This document shows, in pieces, positions 48,462-51,942 of a DNA stretch of 64,000 nucleotides. The DNA is from Pyruvatibacter sp. HU-CL02332. Its GTDB lineage: Bacteria; Pseudomonadota; Alphaproteobacteria; CGMCC-115125. The notes below the pieces were generated by a model. The model had not been told where the DNA came from. It did not search any database and saw only the letters and a list, made by a program, of their open reading frames with translations. Position 1 is the first letter of the stretch. Every line of letters starts with the position of its first letter. Where the stretch lies: contig NZ_BAABWK010000001.1 of the NCBI RefSeq assembly GCF_040362765.1, positions 1,837,501 through 1,901,500 on the forward strand. The letters are read 5' to 3'. Position numbers and translations under genes: made by a program.

Positions 48462-48500
48462 TCAGCGGCTCCGCGAAACGAACAAGAGTAGCCCGATATC

Positions 48501-48537
48501 TCCGGAGTTGCTGGTGGCTGGCACCTGCAACTCCGGA
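48501..48537. terminator. Long hairpin between MAPEG and fusion genes
   Basis: TCCGGAGTTGC (48501-48511) pairs perfectly with GCAACTCCGGA (48527-48537); inside, GGTG pairs with CACC after a T-T mismatch, leaving loop GCTGG. It starts 39 bases after the MAPEG stop. No T-run follows; a terminator, attenuator or processing site. Confidence 0.5.
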
Positions 48538-48569
48538 AGCCGGGAAAGTACCAAAGAGGAAACGTCATC

Positions 48570-51095
48570 ATGAAACTGGATCTCGCAAGCACCGCCTTTC
48601 TGGCGCAACTGGCATCGTTGGGTGCGCCCGGGTTTCATGAGATGGAGCCGGAAGAGGCGCGTCTCGCCGGTGGCCAGATATCCGAATCCTTTCCGCCGGG
48701 CCCTGACATGGCATCGGTGCGTGATGAGACCATTACAGGCTCAGACGGTGTGGGGTTCCGGTTGCGTGTTCTTTCACCAACCAAGAGCCCTCGTGCAGCA
48801 ATCGTTTTCTACCATGGTGGCGGCTGGGTACTGGGCGACATAGATCAGTACGACACCCTGGGCCGCCAACTTGCCAAACGCACAGGCGCAGCCGTCATCC
48901 TCGTCGATTATCGCAAGGCGCCTGAGCACCGTTACCCGGCGGCCGCCCATGATGCCTATGACGCGCTGACATGGGTCGACGCCAACATTACGTTCATCGC
49001 TGGAAAGCGCGTGCCGATCATTGTGGCAGGCGACAGTGCTGGCGGTAATCTCGCCGCGGTGGTTGCACAGCGGGCAAAGGCAGAGAACGGGCCGGACATC
49101 TCGCTGCAGCTTCTTGTCTATCCCGTCACCGATGGGGCGATGAACACGCCTGGCTATGCCAATCCCGACAATCAGTTGCTGCTGAATACGCCGCTGATGG
49201 AATGGTTCTGGGATCATTACGCGCCGAACAAAGAAGACCGGGAGGAGCCCGGCGCTTCGCCCGCGCGTGCCAAAGATCTGTCCGGCCTGCCGCCGGCACT
49301 TGTCGTGACCGCAGAATATGACGTGCTGCGCGACGAAGCTGAAGCGTATGGCGAAGCGATGCAGGCGGCGGGTGTTCCGGTCACGATCAAACGCTTTGAT
49401 CGGCAGATGCACAATTTCTTCGCCATGCCCGGCCTGTTGCCAGCCGCCGCGACAGCGCTGGAATATGTCGGCCAGCAGATTGACCGGCATCTGGCCACAT
49501 CCAGCGAGGTTGATGCGGTGATCGTCGGCGCTGGTTTTGCCGGCATGTATCAGCTTCACAAGCTGCGCCAGCAGGGCCTGTCGACGCGCGTGATTGAGCG
49601 GGCCGATGATGTCGGTGGCACATGGTACTGGAACCGCTATCCCGGTGCGCGGGTAGATATTGAAAGCATGGCGTACTCGTTCTCGTTCGATGAAGAACTG
49701 GAACAGGAGTGGACGTGGAAAGAGAAATACTCGCCCCAGCCTGAAATTCTCTCATACGCGCAACATGTGGCTGACCGGTTTGATCTGCGCCGCGACATCA
49801 CGTTTGAAACCAGCGTCACGCGCGCGCTCTACAATGAAGATACAGCGCGCTGGAATGTCTACACTGACACAGGCGAGGTGATCTCTGCGCAGTATCTGAT
49901 CATGGCGACCGGGTGCCTGTCTGCAATCAAGACACCGGATATTCCCGGCGCCGATACGTTTACCGGCGAGACATACATCACCGGCCTCTGGCCCCATGAG
50001 GGTGTCGATTTTTCCGGCAAGAAAGTTGCCGTCATCGGCACAGGCTCATCCGCCATTCAGGCCATTCCGCACATTGCCGAGCAGGCAGACCAGCTAACGG
50101 TTCACCAGCGCACGCCGGCCTATTCCATGCCGGCGTTCAATCGCCCGCTGGAAGAGACCGAAATTCAGAAGATGAAGACCACCTATCGGGATTATCGCGA
50201 AGCCCAGCGCAACCATCTGGCGGGTATTCCGTATCCGGAGCGTAACCTGATGCCGGCCGCTGCCGAGGGCGACAATGAACGCAAGGCCCGTCTGGAAACC
50301 GCATGGGAGTCCGGCATCCTCACCGCGCTCACGTCGTCATATATGGATGTTCTCTCCAACCAGGACGCCAATGATCTGGTCTCCGAGTTTGTGCGCGACA
50401 AAATTCGCGCCCGTGTGAAAGACCCTGAAACGGCTGAAACGCTGGCTCCCAAGACCTATCCGCTGGGTACCAAGCGCCCCTGTCTCGATACCAATTATTA
50501 TGAGACTTACAATCGCGACAATGTGCGGCTTGTTGATTTGCATAAGACTCCCATTGAGGAGATCACACCAACGGGTGTGCGCACGACCAGTGGGGAAGAC
50601 AGCTATGATGCGATTGTCTTTGCCACCGGCTTTGATGCCATGACGGGCGCGCTGGAGCGCATCGATATTCGTGGGGTCGACGGCATGGCCCTGAAGGATA
50701 AATGGGCCGACGGGCCACACACCTATCTGGGGCTGAGTGTGGCGGGCTTCCCGAACCTGTTCACGATCACCGGCCCATCCAGCCCGTCCGTGCTCAGCAA
50801 TATGATCGTGTCGATTGAGCAGCATGTTGACTGGATCAGCGATTGTATCGCGTGGATGAGGGACAAGGGTCACACCACCATCGAGCCGACCGAAAAGGCC
50901 GAGACCGAATGGGCGATCCACAATGAGCAGGCTGCCAATCTGACGCTCTTTCCCCAGGCCAATTCCTGGTACATCGGCGCAAATGTCCCCGGCAAACCGC
51001 GCACTTTCATGGCTTATATCGGCGGCGTGGATGTTTACCGTCACATTTGTGATGCCATAGCTTCAGATAACTATCAGGGGTTTGAGACGGCATAG
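48570..51095 (+). CDS. Alpha/beta hydrolase fused to Baeyer-Villiger-type flavin monooxygenase
   Basis: Two-domain protein of 841 residues. Residues 1-310 form a hormone-sensitive-lipase-type esterase: oxyanion HGGGWVLGD near residue 82, nucleophile S156 in GDSAGGN, Asp in YDVLRDEAEAYG and His in RQMHNFFAMPG. Residues 314-841 are a class B flavoprotein monooxygenase: FAD motif VIVGAGFAGMYQLHKLRQQG, NADPH motif VAVIGTGSSAIQAIP. The Baeyer-Villiger fingerprint F-x-G-x3-H-x3-W-P reads FTGETYITGLWP (F464 to P475), with Ile in place of His. A Baeyer-Villiger oxidation followed by ester hydrolysis in one protein is the natural model. Confidence 0.92.
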   Translation: MKLDLASTAFLAQLASLGAPGFHEMEPEEARLAGGQISESFPPGPDMASVRDETITGSDGVGFRLRVLSPTKSPRAAIVFYHGGGWVLGDIDQYDTLGRQLAKRTGAAVILVDYRKAPEHRYPAAAHDAYDALTWVDANITFIAGKRVPIIVAGDSAGGNLAAVVAQRAKAENGPDISLQLLVYPVTDGAMNTPGYANPDNQLLLNTPLMEWFWDHYAPNKEDREEPGASPARAKDLSGLPPALVVTAEYDVLRDEAEAYGEAMQAAGVPVTIKRFDRQMHNFFAMPGLLPAAATALEYVGQQIDRHLATSSEVDAVIVGAGFAGMYQLHKLRQQGLSTRVIERADDVGGTWYWNRYPGARVDIESMAYSFSFDEELEQEWTWKEKYSPQPEILSYAQHVADRFDLRRDITFETSVTRALYNEDTARWNVYTDTGEVISAQYLIMATGCLSAIKTPDIPGADTFTGETYITGLWPHEGVDFSGKKVAVIGTGSSAIQAIPHIAEQADQLTVHQRTPAYSMPAFNRPLEETEIQKMKTTYRDYREAQRNHLAGIPYPERNLMPAAAEGDNERKARLETAWESGILTALTSSYMDVLSNQDANDLVSEFVRDKIRARVKDPETAETLAPKTYPLGTKRPCLDTNYYETYNRDNVRLVDLHKTPIEEITPTGVRTTSGEDSYDAIVFATGFDAMTGALERIDIRGVDGMALKDKWADGPHTYLGLSVAGFPNLFTITGPSSPSVLSNMIVSIEQHVDWISDCIAWMRDKGHTTIEPTEKAETEWAIHNEQAANLTLFPQANSWYIGANVPGKPRTFMAYIGGVDVYRHICDAIASDNYQGFETA

Positions 51096-51168
51096 GGTCA
51101 GTCAAGGGTGTGATCCTTCGGACCGGCGCGCACGTAAGAGTGGTATGCCTGTTTTGGGAGAACACACA

Positions 51169-51942
51169 GTGTCAGATAGCCGCCGCCAGATACTCGTCAT
51201 CGCCACTGCCATCGCGCAGTCGGTTGCGCCTGCCATGCCCGCCCTTGGCATCGGCATAAGTGTCGGGGCACGCGACGGTGCAGCGTCGCCGCTGGAAGTG
51301 CCTGCGGGCTACGCCTTTTCCATCTGGGGCGTGATCTTCCTTCTCGGACTCATCTACGCGGTGATGCAGGCATTGCCGTCTGCGAAGGATAATTCCCTTT
51401 ATCGCGACATCGGCACAAAGGCCTGGATGCTGTTCGGGCTTTCCACCGCGTGGATGGTCGTGGCCCAGCTCAACGGGCCCAATGTGATTCTCGCTGTCAT
51501 CATTGTGGTGATGCTCGTCATCGCCATCCGCATCATCGTGACAGCGCGGGATGATCGCGGCGACACGGGACGCCTGATCATCATACCCCTGTTCGGGCTC
51601 TATGCAGGCTGGCTGACCCTGGCGACGGCGCTCAATATCTCCGGCGTTTTGCGGGACTTTGATGTCGCACCATTTGGCCTGCCGGACTGGCAATATGCGT
51701 CCGGCGTGCTGCTGGCGGCAACTCTGGTTGCGATTCCCGTGCTGCGGCGCCTGCGTAGTCTGATCTGGTATGCCGCAGCGGCCATCTGGGGTCTGGTCGC
51801 CGTCATCGTCAAGGATCTGCCCATGGGCCCGCCGGACGGGTATGTGGGCGTGGTGGCAGGCGGCATCGTCCTTGTCCTGCTGTTCATTGTGGCCAGCTAT
51901 GGCCGCACCAAGAACCGCGAGCCCGATTATCCGTTTGTATAG
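51169..51942 (+). CDS. TspO/MBR-like (tryptophan-rich sensory) membrane protein
   Basis: Integral membrane protein of 257 residues with seven to eight helices. The segment PAGYAFSIWGVIFLLGLIYAVMQ followed by WMLFGLSTAWMVVAQ and GLYAGWLTLATALNI resembles the TspO/MBR (peripheral benzodiazepine receptor) family, which bind porphyrins or sterols, but this is longer than the usual 160 residues. The GTG at 51169 is chosen for GGGAG eight bases upstream. It is the last accessory gene before pyrF. Confidence 0.72.
   Translation: MSDSRRQILVIATAIAQSVAPAMPALGIGISVGARDGAASPLEVPAGYAFSIWGVIFLLGLIYAVMQALPSAKDNSLYRDIGTKAWMLFGLSTAWMVVAQLNGPNVILAVIIVVMLVIAIRIIVTARDDRGDTGRLIIIPLFGLYAGWLTLATALNISGVLRDFDVAPFGLPDWQYASGVLLAATLVAIPVLRRLRSLIWYAAAAIWGLVAVIVKDLPMGPPDGYVGVVAGGIVLVLLFIVASYGRTKNREPDYPFV

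Follow-up and report, generated by a model that had tools for sequence, protein, structure and literature searches.

Every esterase-fused homologue examined, including a Pyruvatibacter protein, lacks the fingerprint histidine of Baeyer-Villiger monooxygenases

The window analyzed here (i.e., the whole 64,000-nucleotide stretch of the Pyruvatibacter sp. HU-CL02332 genome) carries a single gene that joins an esterase to a domain resembling type I Baeyer-Villiger monooxygenases (BVMOs) (Table 1); it is flanked by a MAPEG gene and a TspO-like gene. The start codon of this fusion gene is conserved in relatives. The corresponding location in a congener holds a copy with 97% identity, whose likely ribosome-binding site is kept though the DNA farther upstream differs. 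In the genus, four genomes were searched; two of them have the fusion gene, and the other two have the MAPEG and TspO-like genes side by side (the interval corresponding to 48462-51198 of the window). The fusion gene is thus either wholly present or wholly missing at this site, a pattern that fits gain as well as loss.

Analysis of the neighbors of 7 loci with the esterase-BVMO order and 11 loci with the BVMO-esterase order showed that no partner gene recurs except among close relatives and in a few scattered families, and the window gene has no pathway neighbors that would name a ketone. This context fits an enzyme that works without a partner gene, and it gives no hint as to the substrate. 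In addition, a perfect 10-bp inverted repeat (CCGGAGTTGC...GCAACTCCGG, 48502-48536) lies in the stretch that separates the MAPEG gene from the fusion gene, with 0 such repeats expected in shuffles and a fold z of -2.5; it is possibly an operator or a transcription stop. Since the congener differs in this upstream region, we did not count this candidate operator as part of the locus. A promoter scan returned three matches against 1.5 expected, and none of them is directly upstream of the fusion gene.

Table 1. Positions of the fusion gene and of its domains, motifs, and key residues in the window.
Feature	Position	Strand	Basis and conservation
Esterase-BVMO fusion gene	48570..51095 (stop codon included)	+	841 aa; one open frame and its translation
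Likely ribosome-binding site AGAGGAA (predicted)	48555..48561	+	Sequence; 8 nt before ATG
Esterase domain, residues 1-305	48570..49484	+	Pfam Abhydrolase_3, LipP1, PDB relatives
Oxyanion-hole motif HGGG, residues 82-85	48813..48824	+	11/11 esterase-BVMO, 41/42 BVMO-esterase (exception cut by contig end)
GDSAG, residues 154-158, presumed nucleophile Ser156	49029..49043	+	11/11 esterase-BVMO
Asp251, presumed triad Asp	49320..49322	+	Kept in 11/11 and 41/42 (one cut)
His281, presumed triad His	49410..49412	+	Kept in 11/11 and 40/42 (two cut)
Type I BVMO-like domain, residues 311-841	49500..51092	+	PAMO alignment
First BVMO motif GGTWYWNRYPGARVD, residues 349-363	49614..49658	+	PAMO alignment; Asp363 = PAMO Asp66
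Second BVMO motif (fingerprint) FTGETYITGLWP, residues 464-475	49959..49994	+	
Codon ATC, Ile470	49977..49979	+	PAMO alignment, ungapped around motif; faces His173
Second Rossmann motif GTGSSA, residues 490-495	50037..50054	+	
Lys635-Arg636 (PAMO Lys336-Arg337)	50472..50477	+	PAMO alignment; kept in 53/53 fused proteins

Domain searches revealed a match of Pfam Abhydrolase_3 to residues 78-284 (E 8.9e-72; 241.7 bits against a cut-off of 25). The LipP1-type hormone-sensitive lipase family of NCBIfam (NF058653) matches residues 9-303 with 330.6 bits, just under its 350-bit equivalog cut-off; the window esterase differs from that family in being fused to a BVMO. The Pfam flavin-monooxygenase models begin near residue 315, and phenylacetone monooxygenase (PAMO, 1w4x) is the top relative in the PDB, aligning with residues 304-838 (E 1.3e-190, 638.7 bits). 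The junction between the two domains is almost linker-free, as the match ends lie -2 to 5 residues apart in the 11 proteins with the esterase-BVMO order. The sequence-only reading had placed an HSL-type esterase and a flavin monooxygenase in one protein at this locus, and both its domain content and its end points proved exact.

The esterase contains HGGG, GxSxG, Asp, and His in the expected order (i.e., the hallmarks of HSL-type, or Abhydrolase_3, serine esterases), and by analogy with the family these residues (HGGG, Ser156, Asp251, and His281) would form the oxyanion hole and the catalytic triad. All four are present in every fused protein whose sequence extends that far, as judged from a realignment that superseded pairwise alignments, which were short or shifted and left the triad His unscored in 6 of 37 BVMO-esterase proteins. 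The nucleophile motif is GDSAG in the esterase-BVMO proteins and GWSAG (39), GYSAG (1), or GESAG (1) in the BVMO-esterase proteins, 41 of 42 of which keep the Ser, the remaining one being cut off. A side observation concerns an esterase ORF located beside a BVMO (L074:5458-6954), in which GDGAG stands where the nucleophile Ser is expected; this partner is apparently inactive, or else the sequence may contain an assembly error.

In the BVMO-like domain, the first BVMO motif, GGTWYWNRYPGARVD, agrees with the pattern [AG]GxWxxxx[FY]P[GM]xxxD given in the accessible text of PMC4498894, and its scored residues (349, 350, 352, 357-359, and 363) are kept in all 53 fused proteins described below. Both Rossmann motifs, GxGxx[GA], are also intact (G320, G322, and G325; G490, G492, and A495), and D363, R636, K635, R514, and T515, which correspond to Asp66, Arg337, Lys336, Arg217, and Thr218 of PAMO, are kept in 53/53 fused proteins. 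Of these, we take Asp66 and Arg337 to be the catalytic residues of PAMO. Their equivalents in TmCHMO (D59 and R329) are named as catalytic in the accessible text of PMC9044951. The window protein thus shares with PAMO the Rossmann motifs, the first BVMO motif, and these five residues, but differs from it in having Ile instead of His173 and an esterase preceding the domain in the chain. The esterase has a dN/dS of 0.036 against the congener and the BVMO domain one of 0.033, and the values against a more distant homologue (L001), for which synonymous sites are near saturation, are 0.063 and 0.051, respectively. Both domains are under purifying selection, and given the kept residues and the low dN/dS in both, neither is decaying.

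The fingerprint of the window protein reads FTGETYITGLWPHE. Its F464, G466, W474, and P475 are intact, and it departs from the pattern FxGxxxHxxxW[PD] at one position, where Ile470 takes the place of His173 of PAMO (the name H173 for this residue is also used in PMC3762062). This His-to-Ile change had been recognized in the sequence-only reading, and it is not a sequencing slip because the congener has the same codon and all 53 fused homologues likewise lack His. Three further relatives encoded in the same 3.45 Mb genome (L082, L085, and L086) keep His here. Since one tested hallmark (i.e., the fingerprint His) fails, we refer to the domain as type I BVMO-like, and it most likely works as a type I BVMO does.

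With regard to homologues, we classed 386 distinct BVMO domains that came from a contig scan (the best 80 of 239 relatives), from whole-genome searches, and from further matches that were fetched. The genome searches scored the best 2, 4, or 5 candidates per genome at E 1e-150 or 1e-130, and the samples overlap. Identical domains were collapsed, and BVMO matches that covered <380 positions or fell short of either end of the central region were excluded, as were L385 and L387, truncated fragments of the window gene and of its congener. One protein (L157) that is cut by the contig end within the esterase was assigned to the BVMO-esterase order by hand, and another (L036) is cut before the triad His. 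Among the matches listed in a plasmid search, those with both domains were two annotated genes or unannotated (H1), and they enter no count.

An esterase is encoded in the same frame as 53 of the 386 domains, and none of the 53 has the fingerprint His; the residues at the position equivalent to 470 are Phe (28), Val (11), Ile (3), Tyr (3), Gln (2), Ser (2), Leu (2), Asn (1), and Thr (1). Among the unfused homologues, 285 of 333 have His and 48 lack it. When only domains with at least 55% identity to the window protein are considered, His occurs in 0 of 37 fused and 88 of 95 unfused ones. A plain Fisher test of fusion against His gives 3e-37, a value that ignores descent and is not evidence of repeated events. 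The comparison with other fused homologues had been proposed as a check in the sequence-only reading; what that reading missed is that absence of His extends to all fused homologues examined, whichever the domain order, and is not peculiar to one gene. An adjacent esterase ORF (i.e., a stop-to-stop ORF on the same strand within 400 nt) accompanies 47 of the 333 unfused homologues, 40 of which have His and 7 of which do not. Three unfused actinobacterial BVMOs with such a neighbor (L408, L413, and L417) have Phe at the fingerprint (F.GEVYFTAAWPRE); they represent His loss without fusion and go against a strict fusion rule.

The fused set comprises 11 proteins with the esterase-BVMO order and 42 with the BVMO-esterase order, the latter having ~12-36 residues between the domains (37 measured). 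In a tree of 56 BVMO domains inferred without the motif columns, which included 18 of the 32 BVMO-first rows known at that stage, each of the two fusion groups forms a clade (support 100/100), and unfused actinobacterial proteins that carry His group with the esterase-first clade (97/94 and 100/97). Constraining the two groups together cost 25.9 log units, with a borderline AU p of 0.0396. As the two large fused clades stand apart, surrounded by unfused relatives that mostly have His, each of them probably lost the residue on its own, at the strength that this borderline value allows. A third BVMO-esterase fusion (L176:1096-3813) is 45% identical, has a GESAG esterase and Thr at the fingerprint, and was seen as one distinct gene; in a quick tree of 377 rows, from which nine rows with <41% identity were excluded, it lies on a long, unstable branch, and its ancestor is already inferred to be non-His. 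Within the sister group of the BVMO-esterase clade, L151:1264-4080 is an unfused BVMO ORF with an esterase ORF 22 nt downstream and Gln at the fingerprint (FKGAWFQTQKFPKE), and it is possibly an intermediate in which His was lost before fusion.

Some insight into the role of this position comes from earlier work, as described in the accessible part of PMC3762062. There, a role in the conformational change between the FAD and NADPH sites was proposed for the motif His, and its mutation lowered the efficiency of CHMO and inactivated HAPMO. The same source describes BVMOAf1 of Aspergillus fumigatus, which naturally has Gln at the motif His and is active, NADPH-specific, and selective, with a modest kcat of ~0.5 per s. 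Like the window protein, BVMOAf1 is a BVMO domain in a natural longer chain whose fingerprint His is replaced; it differs in being fungal, in having Gln rather than Ile, and in carrying a C-terminal putative polynucleotide synthase that was removed before the assay (PMC3762062). We regard it as the best precedent, and by analogy it would point to altered or slower handling of the catalytic cycle rather than to lost chemistry. In the literature searched, we found no proven BVMO with Ile at this position, a relative that would count against the sequence-only reading, the nearest being this Gln enzyme.

How the association of fusion with His loss arose can be read in more than one way. It may reflect coincidence and shared descent, with two or three fusions having fallen where the position had drifted, and we give this only a little less than an even chance. 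Only two fusion origins are well supported, apart from the isolated L176, and the independent-pairs test rests on 2 pairs (p 0.5), while a joint fused clade is rejected only at p 0.04. In the 377-row tree, ~18% of the unfused branch length is non-His and ~17 losses are inferred in unfused lineages, and therefore His loss is not confined to fusions; indeed, the 48 unfused homologues without His include the 7 with an adjacent esterase as well as L151. Against coincidence, the change away from His in each of the two large clades maps to the same branch as the fusion itself, with no reversal among the 53 proteins. Of 157 sites that reach at least 85% conservation in the 324 unfused domains, residue 470 alone is lost in both clades. 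(An earlier site comparison, in which the unfused rows were pre-split by His, yielded 181 sites, with 470 and 583 lost in both, and was superseded by this unsplit version.) At the 18% rate, two non-His origins would have a chance of ~0.03 and three of ~0.006, by rough arithmetic that ignores tree uncertainty. With only two or three fusion origins and 48 unfused homologues also lacking His, fusion is no more than a candidate cause of the loss.

If the association is functional, fusion at either end might make His dispensable or unwanted, the esterase would take over or alter the control of the FAD-NADPH movement, independent fusions would converge on losing the residue that defines the family, and ester release would be coupled to hydrolysis; we hold this only tentatively and consider it rather doubtful. 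An unlikely, more specific possibility is that the esterase docks on the hinge of the FAD and NADPH domains and replaces the role of His, thereby coupling oxygenation to hydrolysis mechanically. Loss of His in both domain orders is consistent with docking, as is the hydrophobic or aromatic nature (F, V, I, L, or Y) of the replacement in 47 of 53 proteins, which would befit a packing contact. However, F, Y, L, or V is also frequent among the unfused homologues that lack His (28 of 48), and Gln, the residue found in the unfused BVMOAf1 (PMC3762062), accounts for 2 of the six polar replacements. An AlphaFold model computed from 8 fused sequences was too poor to use (mean pLDDT 56.7, pTM 0.47), and for this reason no claim here rests on it. 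Finally, the oxygenase domain may have left Baeyer-Villiger chemistry altogether and become an S/N-oxygenase, an NADPH oxidase, or another flavoenzyme, with the esterase serving an unrelated or preceding step. The missing motif His, which defines the family, and the impaired or inactive CHMO and HAPMO mutants (PMC3762062) favor such a change; the equivalents of PAMO Asp66 and Arg337 kept in 53/53 fused proteins, PAMO being the closest solved relative, and the lactones made by the His-to-Gln enzyme BVMOAf1 (PMC3762062) speak against it, and we consider it improbable.

We propose that the window protein is probably a self-contained, two-step ketone-degrading enzyme in one chain, with Baeyer-Villiger activity retained and the control of its FAD and NADPH domains relaxed or re-tuned. 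The C-terminal BVMO-like domain, with FAD, NADPH, and O2, would insert an oxygen beside the ketone carbonyl to give an ester, and the N-terminal HSL-type serine esterase would hydrolyze that ester to an acid and an alcohol. Ile in place of His would most likely reflect relaxed or re-tuned control of the movement between the FAD and NADPH domains. We infer both activities, their order, the substrate, and the role of the missing His. A working ketone-to-acid-plus-alcohol enzyme, and not new chemistry, would be expected because the catalytic residues are kept, both domains are under purifying selection, and the fungal Gln BVMO is active; a weak or non-Baeyer-Villiger enzyme is possible because mutation of His lowered the efficiency of CHMO and inactivated HAPMO (PMC3762062). 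The route from ketone through ester to acid and alcohol had been suggested from the domain pairing, and the 47 unfused homologues with an adjacent same-strand esterase ORF agree with it. The further suggestion that Ile implies a different oxidation chemistry is not supported as it stands, given that the catalytic and NADPH-binding equivalents are kept in 53/53 fused proteins and that the Gln BVMO is active (PMC3762062), while altered NADPH coupling in the window protein is possible.

The same order of reactions, from ketone to ester to hydrolysis, is known for separate enzymes, as judged from the accessible parts of the respective papers: SadD with SadA/SadB (PMC12753306), a BVMO and an esterase in Thalassolituus (PMC6304351), and the BVMO-hydrolase pairs of Sphingobium AntQ-1, including a BVMO with an epsilon-lactone hydrolase (PMC9836352). 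SadD with SadA/SadB and the AntQ-1 pair catalyze the same two reactions in order, but as two proteins (PMC12753306, PMC9836352), and the BVMO of AntQ-1, unlike the window protein, is described as having the canonical motif with His (PMC9836352). In the open-access literature, as far as its text was accessible, we found neither a description of a natural esterase-BVMO fusion nor a link between fusion and His loss, though either might appear in the reviews by Leisch and Riebel or in the domain-architecture supplement of PMC4498894.

Deviations from the motif as such are already known, namely BVMOAf1 and, by citation, some rhodococcal BVMOs (PMC3762062); the BVMO motif can be degenerate (PMC9044951), and minor motif differences are mentioned (PMC5408260), in each case in the accessible text. 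The new points are the association of His loss with fusion and the blind spot of surveys that require His. According to their accessible text, the surveys in PMC4498894, PMC9044951, and PMC6058054 retained only sequences with the His motif, and the 53 fused enzymes lack this His despite having their other key residues intact; therefore, a one-chain catalyst that converts a ketone to an acid plus an alcohol may have been filtered out. The two opposite fusion orders also provide a natural experiment on the role of the fingerprint His.
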